Part shown: piece after piece, positions 2,294 through 16,341 of the stretch
Layout: each line of letters opens with the position of its first letter
Position numbering within the stretch: the stretch's first letter is position 1
The notes under the pieces: model-generated
Told to the model about the DNA's origin: nothing
Databases searched by the model: none
Seen by the model: the letters and a program-made list of their open reading frames with translations, nothing else
Made by a program: the position numbers and the translations under genes
Origin: a virus
Length of the DNA stretch: 36,578 nt
Virus record (IMG/VR): IMGVR_UViG_3300048997_000078
Location: 1-36,578 of that record
Direction: 5' to 3' (one strand)

Positions 2294-2503
2294 TCAGTTG
2301 TAGCGGCGCCGGCCGGCGTTGCAGTCTGGGCAGTTCTTGATCTTGCTGCCGATGGGCCGGGTAAAGTTGCGTGGACACGATTCACACATCTTCATCTCGC
2401 GCCTGGTCTCGTCGATCGGGACCTCCACTGGCGCCAGAGGAATGGGAAGGCCGCTGAGAACGGCATCAGCGATCAGATACTCTCTGCTGCGTTGCATAAT
2501 CAT
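2294..2503 (-). CDS. small zinc-ribbon protein, unknown function
   Basis: A 69-residue protein. The C-terminal half has two C-x2-C knuckles, CESC and CPDC, about 20 residues apart with basic residues between them, and a RRRYN tail. This is a typical zinc-ribbon layout. The N-terminal half (SREYLIADAVLSGLPIPLAP) is not recognised. It lies between two other small genes on the same strand with short gaps, so probably in one transcript. Nucleic-acid binding is inferred from the ribbon and basic charge. Confidence 0.6.
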   Translation of the reverse strand: MIMQRSREYLIADAVLSGLPIPLAPVEVPIDETRREMKMCESCPRNFTRPIGSKIKNCPDCNAGRRRYN

Positions 2504-2522
2504 TTTTCGGATGGAGCGGCGA

Positions 2523-2708
2523 TCAGGCCGTGGCCGGCCGGATATAGATCTTCACTTGCTGGTCGAGTTGGAACTCGCCGTCGTGCGCGATCTTGAAGGA
2601 ACTGAAGAAAGGCGCGGCATTTTCTACCGCGATCGTGATGCGCTGTCTCTTGTCGCTATAAGACGAGGCGCCGTCGATGGACGAGATTCGGCCCTTGATC
2701 ACGATCAT
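2523..2708 (-). CDS. hypothetical protein, small beta-rich
   Basis: A 61-residue protein starting MIVIKGRISSIDGASSY. The alternation of hydrophobic and polar residues (MIVIKGRI, RQRITIAVENA, QQVKIYIRPA) suggests a small beta-barrel or OB-like fold, which is only a guess. No Cys pairs, signal peptide or membrane helix. It is spaced 15 bases from the upstream gene and 19 from the next, so it fits the operon. It may be a small nucleic-acid-binding protein; function not recognised. Confidence 0.55.
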   Translation of the reverse strand: MIVIKGRISSIDGASSYSDKRQRITIAVENAAPFFSSFKIAHDGEFQLDQQVKIYIRPATA

Positions 2709-2723
2709 ATTTTAGGGGTGGAT

Positions 2724-3119
2724 CTAGCGCGCTAAAGCTGAAGCGCGTTCTTGCGCGGCTTTCGGATCGGGAATGAATATCCGGCCGGCGATGACGGTGA
2801 CCGCGCGTAGATTCTCGCGCCGGTAAATCTTTGACCAGTTGCGGACCTTGATCCGCGCGTCATTTGTGAACTTGCCTCGGACTGCCGCGGCATTTGCTTT
2901 CGACTCACCGGCGGTGATGGTCCTGGCTTTCGAAGGATCTGGCCGCTTACGGCCGATCCGCTCGATTTCTAATGGATGGCCCTGGGCGAGCTCCTCGTCG
3001 GTCGTGACCTGGATGTAGTTTCCAGATCGGAGCATCTGCCATGCTTGTTCTTCAGGGACGCGTTTCTGCACGTTGCCGGAAGCACCTCTCACTTTAGCCC
3101 GGTTGCGGTGATAAGCCAT
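2724..3119 (-). CDS. hypothetical basic protein, first gene after the 3.3 kb promoter
   Basis: A 131-residue, strongly basic protein (many Lys/Arg, for example KVRNWSKIYRRENLRAV). I chose the internal ATG (MAYHRNRAKVRGAS) over a longer frame because the upstream peptide looks non-coding; no clear ribosome site is seen before either. It is the first gene downstream of a sigma70-like promoter, with a leader of about 180 bases. Charge suggests nucleic-acid binding, but no family is recognised. Confidence 0.6.
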   Translation of the reverse strand: MAYHRNRAKVRGASGNVQKRVPEEQAWQMLRSGNYIQVTTDEELAQGHPLEIERIGRKRPDPSKARTITAGESKANAAAVRGKFTNDARIKVRNWSKIYRRENLRAVTVIAGRIFIPDPKAAQERASALAR

Positions 3120-3309
3120 AGAGTCCAGTGTTGAGTGTTTTGGCCGTAGACACACGTCTAGCGACCTATGCTACGGCCGATGTCGCTCAGCGAGGGAGAA
3201 TATGGTCCGGCAGGACTGCCGCCACAACCCGCGTCAGGTGGATGTGCTGAAGGCGCCGAAGCGTTAGCAAATCGCCTGAAGCTAAATTGAAAAGCTATGA
3301 AGCTGAGTC

Positions 3310-3339
3310 AACATACTGGACGGCGGAACTTGGCGTCAA
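3310..3339 (-). promoter_or_regulatory. sigma70-like promoter
   Basis: On the minus strand TTGACG (-35, at 3334-3339) is followed after 18 bases by TATGTT (-10, at 3310-3315). It would start transcription near 3303 and read toward the small genes and the lysis cassette. It lies in the only long noncoding region of the left half and just after a terminator-like inverted repeat, which supports a true transcription boundary. Confidence 0.55.
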
Positions 3340-3342
3340 GAG

Positions 3343-3370
3343 AAAAAACCTTAACCCGATTCGAGGTTTT
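3343..3370 (-). terminator. weak terminator or operator-like inverted repeat
   Basis: Arms AAAACCT and AGGTTTT are separated by 12 bases and followed on the minus strand by six T residues. It ends only four bases before the -35 box of the promoter at 3310-3339. It could stop upstream transcripts or be an operator. The stem is AT-rich and the loop long, so it is weak. Confidence 0.4.
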
Positions 3371-3441
3371 ACCTGAGCTGACTCCCATCTCGTCGTAACC
3401 TTCGCTCTTTGTTCAGTGGTTCTATCCATCATTTTTCGTGA

Positions 3442-3450
3442 TTATCGACA
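3442..3450 (+). other. DnaA-box-like site
   Basis: TTATCGACA matches the E. coli DnaA box TTATCCACA at eight of nine positions. A second near match on the other strand lies at 3985-3993. Either one alone would be chance; their position on both sides of the iteron array gives modest support for a replication origin. Confidence 0.3.
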
Positions 3451-3497
3451 GAGTTTGGTACTAGGGTTGCGCTTCTGCTTATTCAGGAAAGGGTGGG

Positions 3498-3522
3498 TTC
3501 GGGAGGGCCGTGCCCTCCCGAA
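3498..3522. repeat. perfect 11-bp hairpin in the origin-like region
   Basis: TTCGGGAGGGC and GCCCTCCCGAA form a perfect 11-bp stem with a 3-base loop. Neither strand has a good U-tract after it, so it is not a standard terminator. In this setting it may be a structural element of the origin (for example a single-strand initiation or extrusion site) or part of an untranslated RNA. Confidence 0.6.
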
Positions 3523-3663
3523 AGATGTAACGCATTTGTACTTACATTCGATCGCGATAGCGATCGGTCCTCTTAAAGAATTCCACACCGTCCACAGTCG
3601 AAATCAACCACGGCTAGCTCAACCTAATTACACAATCAGAGGCCGACGGCCAATAACAAAATG

Positions 3664-3740
3664 GGAAGTTTGTCTCAATGAGATTGAACTTTGTCTCTTT
3701 TAAAATGATTTCCGTCACAGGTGGGTAGGAACTTTGTCAC
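3664..3740. repeat. four iteron-like direct repeats (putative replication origin)
   Basis: On the plus strand: GGAAGTTTGTCTC (3664-3676), TGAACTTTGTCTC (3685-3697), a degenerate GATTTCCGTCAC (3707-3718) and GGAACTTTGTCAC (3728-3740). The GTC steps are 21, 21 and 22 bases apart, two helical turns. An AT-rich stretch (TCTTTTAAAATGATT) lies between units two and three. The array lies about 260 bases beyond the 3' end of the winged-helix initiator candidate, in a noncoding region. Equal phasing and neighbouring initiator gene are the hallmarks of an iteron origin. The replication role is inferred. Confidence 0.65.
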
Positions 3741-3862
3741 ACGCTTTTTCGATTTCCACATCTCAGTGCATCGCCTGGCTCGACGTCTGCATTGTTTCGC
3801 CGGCGAAAATACAGAGCTGCGCGACGTGGCGCTGATCGCGTCCTCTCGGCCTTATCGGAATC

Positions 3863-3878
3863 GGTAACTTTTGTTACC
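3863..3878. repeat. palindrome GGTAAC-TTTT-GTTACC
   Basis: A perfect 6-bp inverted repeat with a 4-base spacer in the noncoding region between the iterons and the initiator gene. This size suits a dimeric regulator operator or a replication-protein site. No family assignment is possible. Confidence 0.5.
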
Positions 3879-3933
3879 AATTGAAATTGCGGAAAATCGC
3901 GAAACCCGCACCAATAGCGGAGCAAATGAAAAT

Positions 3934-3961
3934 GGCCGCGGGAGACAATTCTCCTGCGGCC
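3934..3961 (-). terminator. strong terminator after the initiator candidate
   Basis: On the minus strand GGCCGC-A-GGAGA, loop ATTG, TCTCC-C-GCGGCC form an 11-bp stem with one mismatch, followed by ATTTTCATTTG. It lies about 40 bases after the stop of the gene at 4002-5045 and probably ends the long early transcript. From here to 3120 I see no convincing gene. Confidence 0.7.
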
Positions 3962-3984
3962 GTTCACTTACGATCCTAATTTGT

Positions 3985-3993
3985 GGTGGATAA
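3985..3993 (-). other. DnaA-box-like site
   Basis: On the minus strand TTATCCACC differs from TTATCCACA at one position. It lies just after the stop codon of the replication-initiator candidate. Suggestive only together with the iterons. Confidence 0.3.
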
Positions 3994-4001
3994 AGAGGCT
4001 A

Positions 4002-5045
4002 TCAGCCTGGTGGCCTTGGGATTAGCGCTTCGATGTACTTGTCAGGAATGCCGCGGCTGCGCATCCTGGTCCAGCATTCGCTCCAGAACCTTCCGATTGT
4101 GCGACGTTGGCCCATAAATTCGCGCACGAGGGCCGTGTGGATGTCGCCGGCGGGAATCCACCAGCCGGAGTTCCTTAAGCCGCCAGCGAGCGACTGTCGC
4201 GCAAAGCGCTCTACCTCTGCTTGCGCTTGCGTCTCGTTGAATTCCTTGCCTGGTAGATACCAGATCTTGTTGTATTCCTGAGTAAACATCGCTCCGTCAG
4301 TGCCGGCTGGAACCTCTACCCCATTAAGAAAGTACGCTCCTTGCTGCTCTTCAACCGACAGAACGTGAATGCTCTGCCAGAAATTTATGCTAGCCGCGAC
4401 CGTATCGCGGTGGATCCCCAAGCAGCCGGCTATGTGTGGGTACGAAAGCTGCAGATGATCTTTTTTCATCCTGCCAGTCTTCTCGTCGATCGCCAGCAAA
4501 CCATGAAACGCTAGGACCAGCATCACCAAGCGATCGATCGCGCTGCCTGGCGCGTTCACATCGAACAGCCATCCTGGGATCCAGGCATAGTCCGCGAAGG
4601 CGCCGCCTTTCTTCAGGTTCTGCAGCCTGGCTTCAAGATCCCGCCAGTAGCCGCCGAATTGAGGATGCCGGCACATCTCTTTCGCGCGCGGCATCTTGAA
4701 CCCGGATCCTTTGACGTAGTGGCCGGCCGCCTCGCCCTGGTCAAACGCGAAGGCGTAGACGCATGCCTTTGCTGCCTTCTTAAATTGTTTGGTAAGCAGC
4801 TTCGGGCTGCGGCGAAGATTGCGATTAAAAGACTCGCGACATTTGAAGCCGGCCTTTTGCGCCAGGTTCTTTTGTTGCCGCGGCTGTGTGTACATCGCGC
4901 TCTTTCCATGTTGCGGGAGAGCTGATGAGGCGACCAGCGCAGCCATCACTTTCATGAGCGCACTCTTATCGAGCTGCGCGCGGTATCCGTCAGGATTCTT
5001 TACTTTATGTTTCGTGTGCTCTTTGCCGATCATCGCGAAGAACAA
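4002..5045 (-). CDS. winged-helix protein, replication initiator candidate
   Basis: About 347 residues. The central region (about 165-250) begins AWIPGWLF, continues with SAIDRLVMLVLAFHGLL, and then has a helix-turn-helix, YPHIAGCLGIHRDTVAASIN, followed by a strand pair: a winged-helix layout common in phage and plasmid replication initiators. It is the last early gene before a strong terminator and the iteron array. The start is uncertain: TTG at 5045, ATG at 5033, or CTG at 5159, which has a TGGAG about eight bases upstream; the frame stays open back to the TAA of the preceding gene. No polymerase, primase or helicase accompanies it, so it would recruit host replication. Role is inferred from fold and position. 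Confidence 0.6.
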   Translation of the reverse strand: MFFAMIGKEHTKHKVKNPDGYRAQLDKSALMKVMAALVASSALPQHGKSAMYTQPRQQKNLAQKAGFKCRESFNRNLRRSPKLLTKQFKKAAKACVYAFAFDQGEAAGHYVKGSGFKMPRAKEMCRHPQFGGYWRDLEARLQNLKKGGAFADYAWIPGWLFDVNAPGSAIDRLVMLVLAFHGLLAIDEKTGRMKKDHLQLSYPHIAGCLGIHRDTVAASINFWQSIHVLSVEEQQGAYFLNGVEVPAGTDGAMFTQEYNKIWYLPGKEFNETQAQAEVERFARQSLAGGLRNSGWWIPAGDIHTALVREFMGQRRTIGRFWSECWTRMRSRGIPDKYIEALIPRPPG

Positions 5046-5186
5046 TCCGGACCAACGGAACTCTCCGCCGTGGCCGGACGGTACATTTGCAAATGCCGGG
5101 ACGGATCGCGGCGCAGGAACGCAATGGACTCCCTTCCGTGTTGGCGACGGCTTGCTCAGCGATTTTTCTCCAGAGACTTCATTTGA

Positions 5187-5399
5187 TTAGACAGAAGCAC
5201 CTTCGCCTTGCAAAGTATCCGCGTGGCTTCCCCTGCAGAGCGTCGTCCGCGGATCGCGACGCACTAGAATTTGTGAATTGGTTTTGGCGAGACAGAAACA
5301 GCAATTGCCGGCAGGAACAGTTAACGAGCGAATGGGCTCGACGCCAGCGTTCTTGCTCTTCCAGCAATCCTCGCAAATGAGATGCTCCCAGGGACTCAC
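5187..5399 (-). CDS. small Cys-rich zinc-binding protein
   Basis: 70 residues with C-x2-C at CEDC (9-12) and a second cluster CCFC (33-36), plus a late Cys. The frame LICEDCW...VPAGNCCFC...ILVRRDP resembles small phage proteins of the form HLICEHCW...CCFCG...IYVRxDP, a zinc-ribbon family of unknown role. The GTG start overlaps the stop of the ParB-like gene as GTGA, so translation is coupled. Its TAA is in the same frame as the downstream initiator candidate, with no other stop between. Confidence 0.75.
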   Translation of the reverse strand: MSPWEHLICEDCWKSKNAGVEPIRSLTVPAGNCCFCLAKTNSQILVRRDPRTTLCRGSHADTLQGEGASV

Positions 5400-5755
5400 G
5401 CTCTTCTCCGGTATTTGTATTTCGCGAACGTCTTATCCAACTCAAACACCCGAGCCATAATCCACTTGCGGCCGATTGATCTCGCCGCCTCTACGCGATG
5501 ATGGCCATCTGTAAGCATCAATCCGTGACGGTCACGTACAACCATGATTGGATTAACGAAACTACCAAGCAGTCCGCGCTTCTTGAATCTGCGAACGTAG
5601 TAATTTACGGACTCGACTGAAAGGTCCTTTTGTATTCCTTTCAAGTCACAGATCCGGACCTTGCGCCAACGAATCCCTAAAAACTCGTCGATTTGGTTGA
5701 TCACTCTGGCCGAACGGTTCTTAGTCGTCAAACGAAGGCGCGATCTCATCTTCAA
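5396..5755 (-). CDS. ParB-like (ParB/Srx superfamily) domain protein
   Basis: 119 residues. The C-terminal half, GSFVNPIMVVRDRHGLMLTDGHHRVEAA, then SIGRKWIMARVFELD, has the core of a ParB N-terminal-like domain: a strand with a conserved position, the D-G-H-H-R motif and a following helix. The N-terminal half is basic and helical (VRICDLKGIQKDLSVESVN) and could bind DNA. There is no typical ParB HTH core or C-terminal dimer domain, so it is a stand-alone ParB-like protein. Start is TTG at 5755, overlapping the ATPase stop as TTGA with AAGGAG five bases upstream, or ATG at 5749. Lying between a HerA-like ATPase and an initiator candidate, it may act in partition or DNA processing; nuclease or CTPase activity is possible from the superfamily but not shown. 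Confidence 0.72.
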   Translation of the reverse strand: MKMRSRLRLTTKNRSARVINQIDEFLGIRWRKVRICDLKGIQKDLSVESVNYYVRRFKKRGLLGSFVNPIMVVRDRHGLMLTDGHHRVEAARSIGRKWIMARVFELDKTFAKYKYRRRA

Positions 5756-7578
5756 AACAACTCCTTCGCTGCTTTGATTTCGCCGCGGCCGACATTCTCA
5801 ACGATCCGTCGCGCACTCAAACGCTGGATGTAAGCATCGCGCGACGATCGCTTATAGCCAGTGAGCTCGTCCAGGTTGTCCCGTGAGATTGCGGATCCGC
5901 CGGCATCAAGCAGAACTTTGAGAATCTTCTTTTCGCCTTCGGGAAGTTTGTTCAGCCAGTACTGCTGCAGATCTACTCCGGTCGGCAATGGCTCATAGTC
6001 GGAGCCAAGCGCATCGATGCCGGCTTGCGTTGCGGTTAGGGAATTGCCGGCGACGTCGACGAATCCCTTTTCACGCAGCCGCTGGATGTAAGCATCGCGC
6101 GACGACCGCTTGTAGCCGGTGAGAACGCTCAGCTGATCACGTTCGGCGCCGCCTTCATATTGTGCGATCGCGCGAAGTACCGATTTCTCGCCAACCGGCA
6201 ATGATGAGCTGTGTCCGTTTTGGGTACTAGGCGTCTTAGCTGGCTTGCGGTCGTCGACTGGCAGGGGTCCGACACCGTGGCCAGGCTTATAGCCATAGGC
6301 CGCGTGTTTGAATTCGCGTTGAGCTGGAGCAGTCAGGGACGTCGCCGGCATCTCGATCGCGATCTTCTCGTCGGGCGGCACAAATCCGGTTTTGTTGAAA
6401 GACGTCGCAAGCGAGTCCATCACTTCCTTGCGATATTTCCGCACGGCCGCGGTCCATGAAGTGTCACGCTTCTTGATCGCAGACTCCACTGCGCGCGTGA
6501 TCTGAGCTTTCAGTTTTTCCGGATCCGGAGCGGCGGCCGTCGACGTGGACGGCGCTGCAGATTTCTTAGTGAGCTCCTTCTTTAGCTCCGCCAGCTGTTT
6601 CTTCAGCTCCCTGGGATCGTTCTCCTTCGCGCGCTCGATTGTGGCAGCCATGCGTTGCGCGTATTTTGCCAGATCAGGTTTGGCTCCCGATCCTGTCACC
6701 TTACGGCCGCGTTCGCCGGGCTTAGGCGTTGCACTCGAGTCAAACGTTCTGCGCTGACGGAAGCGGACGACTCCTTCAAACTGCAGCCAGCCTGGTGAAA
6801 CGACCAGCGCTGTACCGACGTCGAGCTTCCGGATTTTCTCCACCATCGCATTCACTTCAGCTTTGGGTACATGCTCCCCTAGCCAGTCGGTGATTGCGCC
6901 GATCGAATTAGGACCTACGATCCTGAACGCGATCACTGCGTCCGCAACTTCTGAAACGCTCTTTGCCATGCGCGCACTGCGTTGCGTCAACAGGCCAACA
7001 CCTATGCCGATGTTTCTTCCCTCTTCCACCATCTGTTCCCACGCAGCAACGCATAGCGCCATCTTTGCGTCGCCGGCACGGATCGTTTGCGGAATGTAAC
7101 GCGCTGCCTCATCTAGCAGCTGAAAGATTGGTTCGCGCCGGCGGCCGCCGACCAACTCGCCCTGCCGCTGGAAAAGTCGGTAGGTGTAGTCAGTAATGAA
7201 CTGGATCTTCTCGCCGATACTCCACATCTGCCCGTTCGGCCGTCGCGAGAAGTCGATGATCACGTTCGCTGATTCGTCGACTACCAGGTCCGCTACGATG
7301 GCGCCGCCTGTGGGCTCGATCGGAATGTCGCCGTGCGTTCCTCCTAGGATCAAACACTCGACACCTTTTCCTTTGCCATCGGCCGAGTGGCGAAGTCCCC
7401 ACCAGACGCCAAGTGGATCCAGCGCGCACCAGCGTAGCCCGGCCGCGTCGAGCTCTTCGACCAGGACGGATCCGAGATTAGTTTTTCCCATTCCTTTGCC
7501 GCCGTAGATAACGGTCGTCGACGTCACCGTCTCGATCGGAAGGGAAAAGTTCTCGCCGACTTTTAGCTTTCTACTCAA
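5752..7578 (-). CDS. HerA/FtsK-like ATPase with duplicated C-terminal winged-helix repeats
   Basis: 608 residues. Walker A GGKGMGKT at about 26-33, a conserved ALDPLGVWWGLR segment at about 52-63, and Walker B FQLLDEAARYIP at about 152-163, then GVGLLTQRSARM as sensor. This matches the HerA-type ATP-binding family widespread in phages and integrative elements, related to DNA-translocating ATPases. About 290-400 is a charged linker with coiled coil. The C-terminal quarter has two tandem helix-turn-helix units sharing the same 15-residue block, LTGYKRSSRDAYIQR, near 486 and 572. Start is a TTG with GAGG about 13 bases upstream. It is followed directly by the ParB-like gene. Probable DNA pump or remodeler in replication or partition; the biological role of the family in phages is not established to my knowledge. 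Confidence 0.85.
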   Translation of the reverse strand: MSRKLKVGENFSLPIETVTSTTVIYGGKGMGKTNLGSVLVEELDAAGLRWCALDPLGVWWGLRHSADGKGKGVECLILGGTHGDIPIEPTGGAIVADLVVDESANVIIDFSRRPNGQMWSIGEKIQFITDYTYRLFQRQGELVGGRRREPIFQLLDEAARYIPQTIRAGDAKMALCVAAWEQMVEEGRNIGIGVGLLTQRSARMAKSVSEVADAVIAFRIVGPNSIGAITDWLGEHVPKAEVNAMVEKIRKLDVGTALVVSPGWLQFEGVVRFRQRRTFDSSATPKPGERGRKVTGSGAKPDLAKYAQRMAATIERAKENDPRELKKQLAELKKELTKKSAAPSTSTAAAPDPEKLKAQITRAVESAIKKRDTSWTAAVRKYRKEVMDSLATSFNKTGFVPPDEKIAIEMPATSLTAPAQREFKHAAYGYKPGHGVGPLPVDDRKPAKTPSTQNGHSSSLPVGEKSVLRAIAQYEGGAERDQLSVLTGYKRSSRDAYIQRLREKGFVDVAGNSLTATQAGIDALGSDYEPLPTGVDLQQYWLNKLPEGEKKILKVLLDAGGSAISRDNLDELTGYKRSSRDAYIQRLSARRIVENVGRGEIKAAKELF

Positions 7579-13199: not shown

Positions 13200-13230
13200 A
13201 CTATAGTCGCGCGGTGGGCTAGGGTGTCAA
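13200..13230 (-). promoter_or_regulatory. sigma70-like promoter with palindromic site
   Basis: Perfect TTGACA (-35, 13225-13230) and TATAGT (-10, 13200-13205) on the minus strand with 19 bases between, slightly long. The -10 overlaps the palindrome ACTATAGT (13200-13207), a possible operator for autoregulation. Transcription would start about twelve bases before the ATG of the HTH gene. The -35 overlaps the integrase stop codon. Confidence 0.6.
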
Positions 13231-14384
13231 TAGGAAAATTTTTGCTGCCCGCCTTGCCGTTGCCGATGTTGGTACTCAGCCGATTGAACAGGCCGCCGCG
13301 GCACCGCATAGATATTGCCTTCATAGGCCGCGTTCACCGCCATTCGCTGGGCTTGTTCGCAGATCTGCGTGTAGTGCCGGACCATCTTTTCTTCGATATG
13401 TCCTGACATCGACATGATCACGCCGATCGGCGTTCCGGCTTCTGCCAGGCGCGTGATCGCGGTGTGGCGCGTGTCATGGATCCTAAAGTGCGGTAGGCCT
13501 GCAGCCTTGCGGATCTCGTCCCACGGTTTCTTGATCCCGGAATTCGACATCGGCCGCGACGGATCGAAATGATTCCGCACGATGCGGAATGGGAAGAGAT
13601 AGTGCTGCGGTTGTGTGCTGCCCAGCTCGCGCGCGTCTGCCAGTAATTCTCGGAGCGCCCACTGTGCATCCGGCGGCAGAGGCATGCTCCTGATCCGGAA
13701 CCTATTCTTCGCCGTTCGCGCTTGCACCTGGACGATCCCTGTTGCTTCAAACGCGTCGCAAAGACGAATGTGCCTCATCTCGCAATTAGTTGCCGTCGCG
13801 CGAAACGCCAGCGTGGAATACAGGTGCACTTTCCGCCATTCAAATCGCGAACCGGAAACTTGGATCCAATGATCTTGTTCCTCTGGAGTGAGCGCGCGCG
13901 GAATGTCTTTCTCTTGCCGCTGCAGATATTCAAAATCTTCCTTCATCTCGTCGGTCCAACACTTCGCACGTTTCAGTATCGTTACCAAGGTGAACACTTC
14001 TTGATTTACCTTGTTCGGATTTACCTGGACCCGAGCTCGCTCGATCTTCTGTTCTGTCCATTGCCAGAGAAATGGATCTGCTTTCAATTGTTCCACTGTT
14101 TTGTTTTGTTGCTTCGCGCAGAGCTCGACGACTTTGTCCGCGGGAATGCCGAGTTCGCCGGATGTCCGCATCGCTTGGTATTCGCGGATGTGGCCAAGAT
14201 GGATTTCTTCGACGACATGGTCCTTGAAAAACCTGTTGAGCGCCCGAATATATTCTTCGTAGCTCTTGATGGTCCCCGGCGCTACATAACGAGCGCGCGT
14301 AGATCCATTTACGAATCGACGTGAATCTATCCATTGCTGCGCGGCCAGAGCAAACTTCTCCCTCCTGCTTATATTGCAGTTCAT
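13227..14384 (-). CDS. int: tyrosine-type site-specific integrase
   Basis: About 385 residues from the ATG at 14384, chosen because GAGG lies nine bases upstream and the longer frame starts in non-protein-like sequence. N-terminal SAM-like core-binding domain (about 10-160, SYEEYIRALNRFFKDH). Catalytic domain: first Arg in NCEMRHIRL, the Lys region in TAKNRFRIRSMPL, H-x2-R in RIHDTRHTAITRLAEAGT, GH in SMSGHIEEKM, and nucleophile Tyr in VRHYTQI. All catalytic positions are present, so it should be active. It catalyses recombination between the tRNA-derived core just downstream and a host tRNA-Met gene. No separate excisionase is recognised. Confidence 0.95.
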   Translation of the reverse strand: MNCNISRREKFALAAQQWIDSRRFVNGSTRARYVAPGTIKSYEEYIRALNRFFKDHVVEEIHLGHIREYQAMRTSGELGIPADKVVELCAKQQNKTVEQLKADPFLWQWTEQKIERARVQVNPNKVNQEVFTLVTILKRAKCWTDEMKEDFEYLQRQEKDIPRALTPEEQDHWIQVSGSRFEWRKVHLYSTLAFRATATNCEMRHIRLCDAFEATGIVQVQARTAKNRFRIRSMPLPPDAQWALRELLADARELGSTQPQHYLFPFRIVRNHFDPSRPMSNSGIKKPWDEIRKAAGLPHFRIHDTRHTAITRLAEAGTPIGVIMSMSGHIEEKMVRHYTQICEQAQRMAVNAAYEGNIYAVPRRPVQSAEYQHRQRQGGQQKFSY

Positions 14385-14493
14385 GATCGACGTCCTCGCG
14401 TGGTCACACGCAGGACACCGCACATGGTCTGGCGTGTGTTGTAGTTTTGTTGGTGCTACATGAGAACGCAGATTGGCGTTGAATCCCATACAT

Positions 14494-14523
14494 CCCCCGG
14501 TGGTCAAATTGCGCCATTGGGGG
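14494..14523 (-). promoter_or_regulatory. inverted repeat in the integrase leader
   Basis: CCCCCGGTGG and CCATTGGGGG pair at eight of ten positions around a 10-base loop. It lies in the 180-base stretch between the terminator and the integrase ATG. It could be an operator or an attenuator. A TTGCCA with a weak TACGGT 17 bases on (about 14537-14565) is the best promoter-like pair I see here. Confidence 0.4.
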
Positions 14524-14566
14524 AATGACGGGGTATAACCGTAACTTAGGCTATAGTTATTGGCAA

Positions 14567-14617
14567 GAAAAATCGGGGACCTAGACTCCGGCGCCATTCC
14601 GGATTCCAGGTCCCCGA
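14567..14617 (-). terminator. strong intrinsic terminator closing the late operon
   Basis: On the minus strand TCGGGGACCT and AGGTCCCCGA form a perfect 10-bp outer stem, with an inner TCCGG/CCGGA stem, followed directly by TTTTTCTTG. It lies 80 bases after the HIRAN gene and before the integrase leader. It should separate the late tail transcript from integrase expression. Confidence 0.85.
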
Positions 14618-15105: not shown

Positions 15106-16341
15106 TTAAGTTGCGTCCCGCGTCTCAATCATCGTTACAAAGAAGGTGACCGACCCGCCCGTCTTGTTCTCTATGCGGTAGGCGGTCGAGCCGTTATAAA
15201 ACAAATTCACCTTGGTCGAAGTTCCTGAGGTGATTGAATACACACTTTGGCCGTCGCTTACTACATAGCAAATTCCACCAGCGCAGACAAATAATCCCAA
15301 TTGGCCGGTCGTCCGGTGAATAGCTATGATTCCGGAGCCTGCGGCTAAATCATAGGTCGCATTATTCGCCAATGTAATGAGTGCATTTGAATTGGCCGCA
15401 TTGATTGTCCATGCAGATGATGGCGTTTGGTTGGCGACCACGTTGGCAGTAGTAACTGTCGCAAAATTGCCAAACCCCGTTGTGCTGATACTCGCGACAT
15501 CACTGGTGTTTGACGAATTGCGTACAGCGAAAGCGTTTCCGGTTGGTGAGCTGTCTGTCTTTCGTACTACCTGGATAGCTTCATCGCCGTTAGCGTTTTG
15601 ATTGACTATTTGATCTTTAGACGACAAGCTTCCCGATAGAGCCAATGAAGCGCCTGTAGCTGCGCCAATGTCTGGCGTCGTGAGAGACGCGGACGTCTGC
15701 TTGACTAGGTTCCCACTGCCAGTCGAATTGCTTGTCGTGAGCGCAGTGCCGCCGCCGATCGACAGACTTGGCGTTGTCATTGAAGAACTCGCTGTTACAG
15801 TCGGCGCGGCTATTGACGAGCTGGCCGTTACTGTCGTCGCCGTAAAAGCCCCTAGAGAAAACGATCCTGTCACGGTCAGGTTTCCATTCACCGTAAAATT
15901 CCCTGTCGTACTCGCCGGCGTTGGTAGTGGAAGCGTCGTGAACATCGAACAGGCGCACGCGTCGAACGACCAGGTCGTGCTGGTCGGTTGAACGCCGGTG
16001 TAGTGGATCAATTCCTGGTTCGTCAGCGAATCTTTCACCGTCACGCGATAACTGATTCCAGTCGGCGATGTCGACGCTGGAGTCGCGACCTGAAGTGATC
16101 CGATGACTCCGTTAGTGATGCTTGCGCACTTGGCGCGCTTCACCACTTGCCCTCCGCCGCCAGCCTGAAAGTTGATCGGGTTGTCGTTTGAGTCTGTGGC
16201 GAGAAAACATATCTGGCCGGCAACAAGCTTCGCGCCGCTGGCGTCTTGGACGTTGCCTCCGGTGATCGTCGTATATTGCGCTGCAGCCGGCAAGCACACT
16301 GCCGCCAGCAACGCCGCGTAAAGCAGCATTCGTTTGATCAT
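15106..16341 (-). CDS. fibre-like structural protein with Sec signal peptide
   Basis: 411 residues. A textbook Sec signal peptide: MIKRM, then LLYAALLAAVCLPAAA, with a likely cut at AAA-Q near residue 21. The N-terminal domain (about 22-130) looks like a beta-rich carboxypeptidase-regulatory-type module (QYTTITGGNVQDASGAKL). The middle is low-complexity, Ser/Thr/Ala-rich repeats (TVTASSS, IAAPTVTASSS, SMTTPSLSIGG) typical of trimeric fibre shafts. The C-terminal part is beta-rich, for example VNLFYNGSTAYRIENKTGG. SD AAGGA upstream of ATG. Its place after the tail-tip gene fits a fibre or receptor-binding protein; the signal peptide is unexpected for a virion part. Confidence 0.7.
   Translation of the reverse strand: MIKRMLLYAALLAAVCLPAAAQYTTITGGNVQDASGAKLVAGQICFLATDSNDNPINFQAGGGGQVVKRAKCASITNGVIGSLQVATPASTSPTGISYRVTVKDSLTNQELIHYTGVQPTSTTWSFDACACSMFTTLPLPTPASTTGNFTVNGNLTVTGSFSLGAFTATTVTASSSIAAPTVTASSSMTTPSLSIGGGTALTTSNSTGSGNLVKQTSASLTTPDIGAATGASLALSGSLSSKDQIVNQNANGDEAIQVVRKTDSSPTGNAFAVRNSSNTSDVASISTTGFGNFATVTTANVVANQTPSSAWTINAANSNALITLANNATYDLAAGSGIIAIHRTTGQLGLFVCAGGICYVVSDGQSVYSITSGTSTKVNLFYNGSTAYRIENKTGGSVTFFVTMIETRDAT

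Follow-up and report, generated by a model that had tools for sequence, protein, structure and literature searches.

Iteron origins combine phased direct repeats with an AT-rich region, most of them also have DnaA sites, and they are read by winged-helix initiators (PMC4980987, PMC5043065, PMC3832669). The F plasmid origin oriS has a TGTGACAAAnT core repeated at steps of 21–22 bp, an AT-rich part and DnaA sites nearby, and its initiator RepE belongs to the Rep_3 family. An extra array 3′ of the F initiator gene, incC, controls copy number (PMC13028717). The tailed phage P1 carries iterons, also at steps of 21–22 bp, in two arrays (oriR and incA), of which incA is likewise found 3′ of the initiator gene; its initiator, RepA, is a different protein. 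The lambda O-type initiators combine a winged helix with phased direct repeats that are located inside the initiator gene, many of them with a GACAAA core. The origins of uncultured phages are seldom located. The locus described here shares its core sequence and step with F oriS, its position 3′ of a candidate initiator gene with P1 incA and its type of core with many lambda O-type genes, while the protein encoded next to it matches none of these initiator families. The array is probably the set of origin iterons of the phage, bound by this adjacent protein.

The window, that is the whole stretch of 36,578 bases that was analysed, is one virus record (IMGVR_UViG_3300048997_000078) without end repeats. 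A frame on the minus strand at 3–608 resembles by eye a Dam-type adenine methyltransferase (FLDPPY motif); the record is cut at its start because this frame runs off there. The early operon is transcribed entirely leftward and comprises an integrase gene (13,227–14,597), small genes, a HerA-like ATPase, a ParB-like protein and finally the ORF with a probable winged helix. The largest coding gap of the window separates this operon from the lysis genes (endolysin at 1233–1829) and harbours the array (Table 1). No RNA family was matched within the gap and its comparison with phage sequences gave no convincing match. Relatives of the terminase were too distant to help the comparison.

Table 1. Features of the intergenic array and of the adjacent genes.
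Feature	Coordinates	Strand	Remarks
Gap without convincing gene	3156..4001		846 bp, contains the iteron array (coding scores, gap list)
DnaA-box near match	3442..3450	+	TTATCGACA; one mismatch
Low-stability AT-rich stretch, candidate DNA unwinding element	3652..3701		Third least stable 50 bp
Iteron copy 1	3664..3677	-	Minus strand TGAGACAAACTTCC; F-plasmid matrix rank 2
Iteron copy 2	3685..3698	-	Minus strand AGAGACAAAGTTCA; F-plasmid matrix rank 40
Iteron copy 3, degenerate	3706..3719	-	Minus strand TGTGACGGAAATCA; 8/12; F-plasmid matrix rank 10
Iteron copy 4	3728..3741	-	Minus strand TGTGACAAAGTTCC; F-plasmid matrix rank 4
DnaA-box near match	3752..3760	+	ATTTCCACA; one mismatch
DnaA-box near match	3888..3896	-	TTTTCCGCA; one mismatch
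Hairpin directly 3′ of the stop codon of the winged-helix gene	3931..3964	-	z -6.3
DnaA-box near match	3985..3993	-	TTATCCACC; one mismatch
Orphan protein, candidate initiator	4002..5159	-	Probable winged-helix domain, residues about 190–310
ParB-like small protein	5396..5755	-	PHROG matches E 7.7e-06; 119 residues
HerA/DUF87-like ATPase	5752..7578	-	Relatives adjoin replication and partition genes

An earlier note on this DNA had described four repeats at steps of 21, 21 and 22 bases. These steps were found again on the + strand, together with three strong copies of a 12-mer (GAAGTTTGTCTC at 3665, GAACTTTGTCTC at 3686 and GAACTTTGTCAC at 3729), but the copy at 3707 (GATTTCCGTCAC) is weaker and shares no more than 8 of its 12 bases with the consensus. 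This degenerate copy is in register; the site reads TGATTTCCGTCACA on the + strand and retains, when read on the minus strand, the TGTGAC half of the array core TGwGACAAAnT. The locus thus features three good direct repeats and a degenerate one in helical phase, as expected for an iteron origin. Exact matches to GAANTTTGTCWC are confined to the array within the whole record. The array is also the only place in the window with three 12-mers within 100 bp that agree at 11 or more of 12 positions; when the window was shuffled with a first-order Markov model, 8 of 1000 sequences contained any such triplet. A single 12-mer at two mismatches showed no enrichment over the window, so that the evidence for the array is the clustering and not the word. 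A second array was found neither 5′ of the winged-helix gene nor elsewhere in the window. The array matched no plasmid sequence. Looking for two of the window's own repeats close together brought up a single contig, which is unrelated.

The other elements of an iteron origin were searched for in and around the array. The array overlaps the 50 bp from 3652, which rank third among the least stable stretches of this length in 36.6 kb; an easily opened AT-rich segment is therefore present at the array, as had been claimed. The presence of DnaA-box near matches on both sides was likewise confirmed: five one-mismatch sites, one of them inside an iteron, are found in 3442–3993 and none is perfect. 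Local shuffles contained 1.3 such sites on average and reached five in 16 of 1000 cases. No match to an IHF site was found in the gap. The strong hairpin noticed earlier near the array is accompanied by others, three genuine hairpins being found in the gap (3498–3522, 3859–3882 and 3931–3964). The last one probably corresponds to the end of the early transcript; no T-run follows it according to a terminator scanner. The window contains a single perfect palindrome, GGTAACTTTTGTTACC at 3863–3878, which is possibly an operator. The cumulative GC skew, proposed earlier as a check of the origin, has a maximum near the array whereas a bidirectional origin is expected at the minimum, a result that is uninformative or slightly contrary.

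The minus-strand copies look similar to the F plasmid iteron, a likeness that was then tested against the F sequence. A matrix built from eight F iterons places the four window sites at the ranks given in Table 1 among 73,120 positions. Chains of four sites at steps of 20–23 were scored with this matrix, giving 18.1 for the window array and 27.5 for F oriS. Among 300 shuffled windows the top chain scored -0.9, and about 110 other viral loci reached -11.8 at most, while column-permuted F matrices gave a maximum of -3.3 and in none of 500 trials reached the window score; these raw figures overstate the significance because F was chosen after inspection. With this reservation, the iteron sequence and the step are F-like. 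The locus is not F-like in its protein, since Rep_3 (PF01051) has no match in the record at E 10 and BLAST gave no similarity to RepE. The window array differs further from oriS by its position 3′ of the candidate initiator gene and by the lack of a perfect DnaA box. The matrix of P1 iterons does not hit the array, in line with the unrelated sequence of the P1 repeats.

IMG/VR was scanned at the DNA level only for three GACAAANT cores separated by 12–37 and then 12–15 bases. At least 120 contigs carry such a phased triplet. It occurs once in the window and in 0 of 100 window shuffles, and in 1.38 Mb of other viral loci no triplet was found of the GACAAANT core or of any of 60 permuted cores. 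The matches listed comprise 90 distinct arrays, which are not independent samples as groups of related phages recur, and 64 of them lie inside an ORF of 100 residues or more. Among these 64 ORFs at least 36 match phrog_678 (replication initiation, O-like), at least 33 phrog_270 and at least 26 phrog_428. As a control, 62 other genes were taken from these contigs; the matches listed for them include no initiation family. Of 15 ORFs among the matches listed whose core runs antisense to the gene, 8 still matched phrog_678, which argues that the core is a signal at the DNA level and does not merely encode a DK repeat. Among the matches listed, intergenic arrays are found next to six HTH_36 proteins, one RPA and one TrfA initiator, and several have perfect DnaA boxes. 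The same core is thus found in and beside phage initiator genes elsewhere. First steps fall, among the matches listed, into groups of 20–24, 30–38 and 40–45 bases; the window, with a first step of 43 followed by one of 21, is compatible with this grouping. One contig of the scan (L197) carries at 6038–6150 repeats TGACAAATTAANTGTCG with the GACAAANT core which, judged by eye, we take to resemble Tn7/CAST transposon ends. The O-type initiators with phased direct repeats (L096, L106 and many of the contigs L114–L233) have their iterons inside the gene. The window differs: its repeats are outside the gene, its protein matches none of those families, and PHROGs gave no match to an initiator.

The earlier note had placed a winged-helix gene 260 bases from the array. 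The distance holds, ORF 4002–5045 ending 261 bases away, but the winged helix is plausible and not established. The gene start is uncertain (TTG at 5045 or CTG at 5159), since no stop codon interrupts the frame as far upstream as this CTG, which follows a GGAG. HTH_Crp_2 of Pfam matches the protein weakly (E 0.22). A structure model of residues 185–312 displays three helices followed by a strand pair (mean pLDDT 66) and had no significant fold match; the full-length model is poor (pLDDT 35). Comparison with phage initiator profiles by hhalign aligned the right domain, weakly (E 0.035 and 0.026, probability below 2%). No relatives were found in IMG/VR, in GTDB genomes or in phage and plasmid records, Pfam gave none, and there was no match in PDB sequences or in PHROGs, where initiator families were included. 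The site is of a known type, but its presumed reader is a protein without known relatives. With such an orphan, binding to the array is inferred.

The HerA-like ATPase encoded further upstream in the operon is related to 22 proteins in IMG/VR and to one from a Gemmatimonadota MAG; these relatives are almost confined to viral contigs and plasmids. Their neighbours include ParB (L085), DnaB (L087), a replication protein (L108) and a family A polymerase (L101). One relative (L091) shares its contig with ParA, a RepA_C initiator and three iterons (CTACCAACTTATGCGTGGA, 16153–16240), and two others (L096 and L106) with the O-like initiators that have iterons inside their gene. By position only, these neighbourhoods suggest that the genes next to the array form a replication module. 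Repeats were also seen at other places. In L107 many TGCGAC repeats span about 500 bp directly behind the HerA-like gene (2454–3100). The C-terminus of the window ATPase contains two winged-helix-like repeats that have in common an exact DNA repeat of 26 bases (5822 and 6080). In L103, three palindromes of the GGCACAGACTGTGCC type at 32-bp steps (14030–14125) are found approximately 370 bp past a gene that appears by eye to code for a winged helix. This layout is similar to that of the window, but the protein is unrelated and L103 was rejected as a counterpart.

The reading of the array as a replication origin, already proposed from the sequence alone, is the best supported, with a core that elsewhere is found mostly in initiator genes and with a likeness to F oriS in sequence and step. 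The four TGwGACAAAnT sites on the minus strand are spaced by about two helical turns (22, 21 and 21 bases). An initiator bound to each of them would lie on one face of the DNA and bend it. Binding could then help to melt the neighbouring AT-rich DNA so that a host helicase can load, and the near DnaA boxes may allow host DnaA to assist. The initiator would most likely be the orphan winged-helix protein, encoded by the last gene of the early operon that also includes the HerA-like ATPase and ParB-like genes.

The main competing explanation is that the repeats serve copy control, titrating or handcuffing the initiator while the true origin lies elsewhere, as in incC of F and incA of P1. The array does occupy the same 3′ position as P1 incA and as F incC (PMC13028717). 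The origin is nevertheless preferred because no second array exists 5′ of the gene or elsewhere in the window and because the low-stability stretch is found at the array, where near DnaA boxes also cluster; we consider copy control unlikely. The next candidate, also unlikely, is an array of operators where a regulator would act on the leftward lysis and late genes beyond the gap, or on the early operon. In phage lambda the late promoter is located between early operon and lysis module, the place taken by the gap in the window; the early operon ends in a terminator-like hairpin, and the palindrome mentioned above is typical for an operator. However, the sole promoter match on the minus strand lies about 330 bp away from the array, the repeat has no copies at other promoters, and its core elsewhere is mostly found in initiator genes.

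The remaining possibilities are lower in rank. A centromere-like partition site read by the ParB-like protein, whose gene is directly upstream of the winged-helix gene, would have a comparable layout in some mycobacterial phages, which carry a direct-repeat parS immediately downstream of repA (PMC7157519). We regard it as very improbable: the 119-residue protein has no visible separate DNA-binding domain and ParA was not found among the window proteins searched, so that the ParA and DNA-binding ParB of a parABS system are missing from that set, and an integrase is present. Sites for recombination, either integrase arm sites or end repeats of a transposase, are suggested by the Tn7-like ends in L197, whose GACAAAT core is similar by eye; yet the integrase gene is 9.5 kb from the array, no transposase was identified among the genes examined and the window core lacks the TGTC partner present in L197, which leaves this explanation with hardly any likelihood. 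It is also very doubtful that the repeats are a chance cluster in a spacer. Only three copies are good, a triplet arises in 0.8% of the shuffles, and many patterns are tried by anyone who scans for them; against this, a fourth half copy is in register, stability is low, and the core was matched and then found in initiator genes of other phages.

If the array is the origin, as we favour, it marks the site where replication of this phage would start and, in a lineage that has no close members in culture, a new initiator. We propose tentatively, as one possibility, that a GACAAA-type core at steps of 21–23 bp is common to diverse winged-helix initiators, those of the F plasmid and of many tailed phages included, of which the window protein would represent a new, hitherto unrecognised family encoded beside a HerA-like ATPase. 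On the origin reading, three phased GACAAANT cores would also provide a simple signature for finding initiator genes in viral contigs where no protein match is available.
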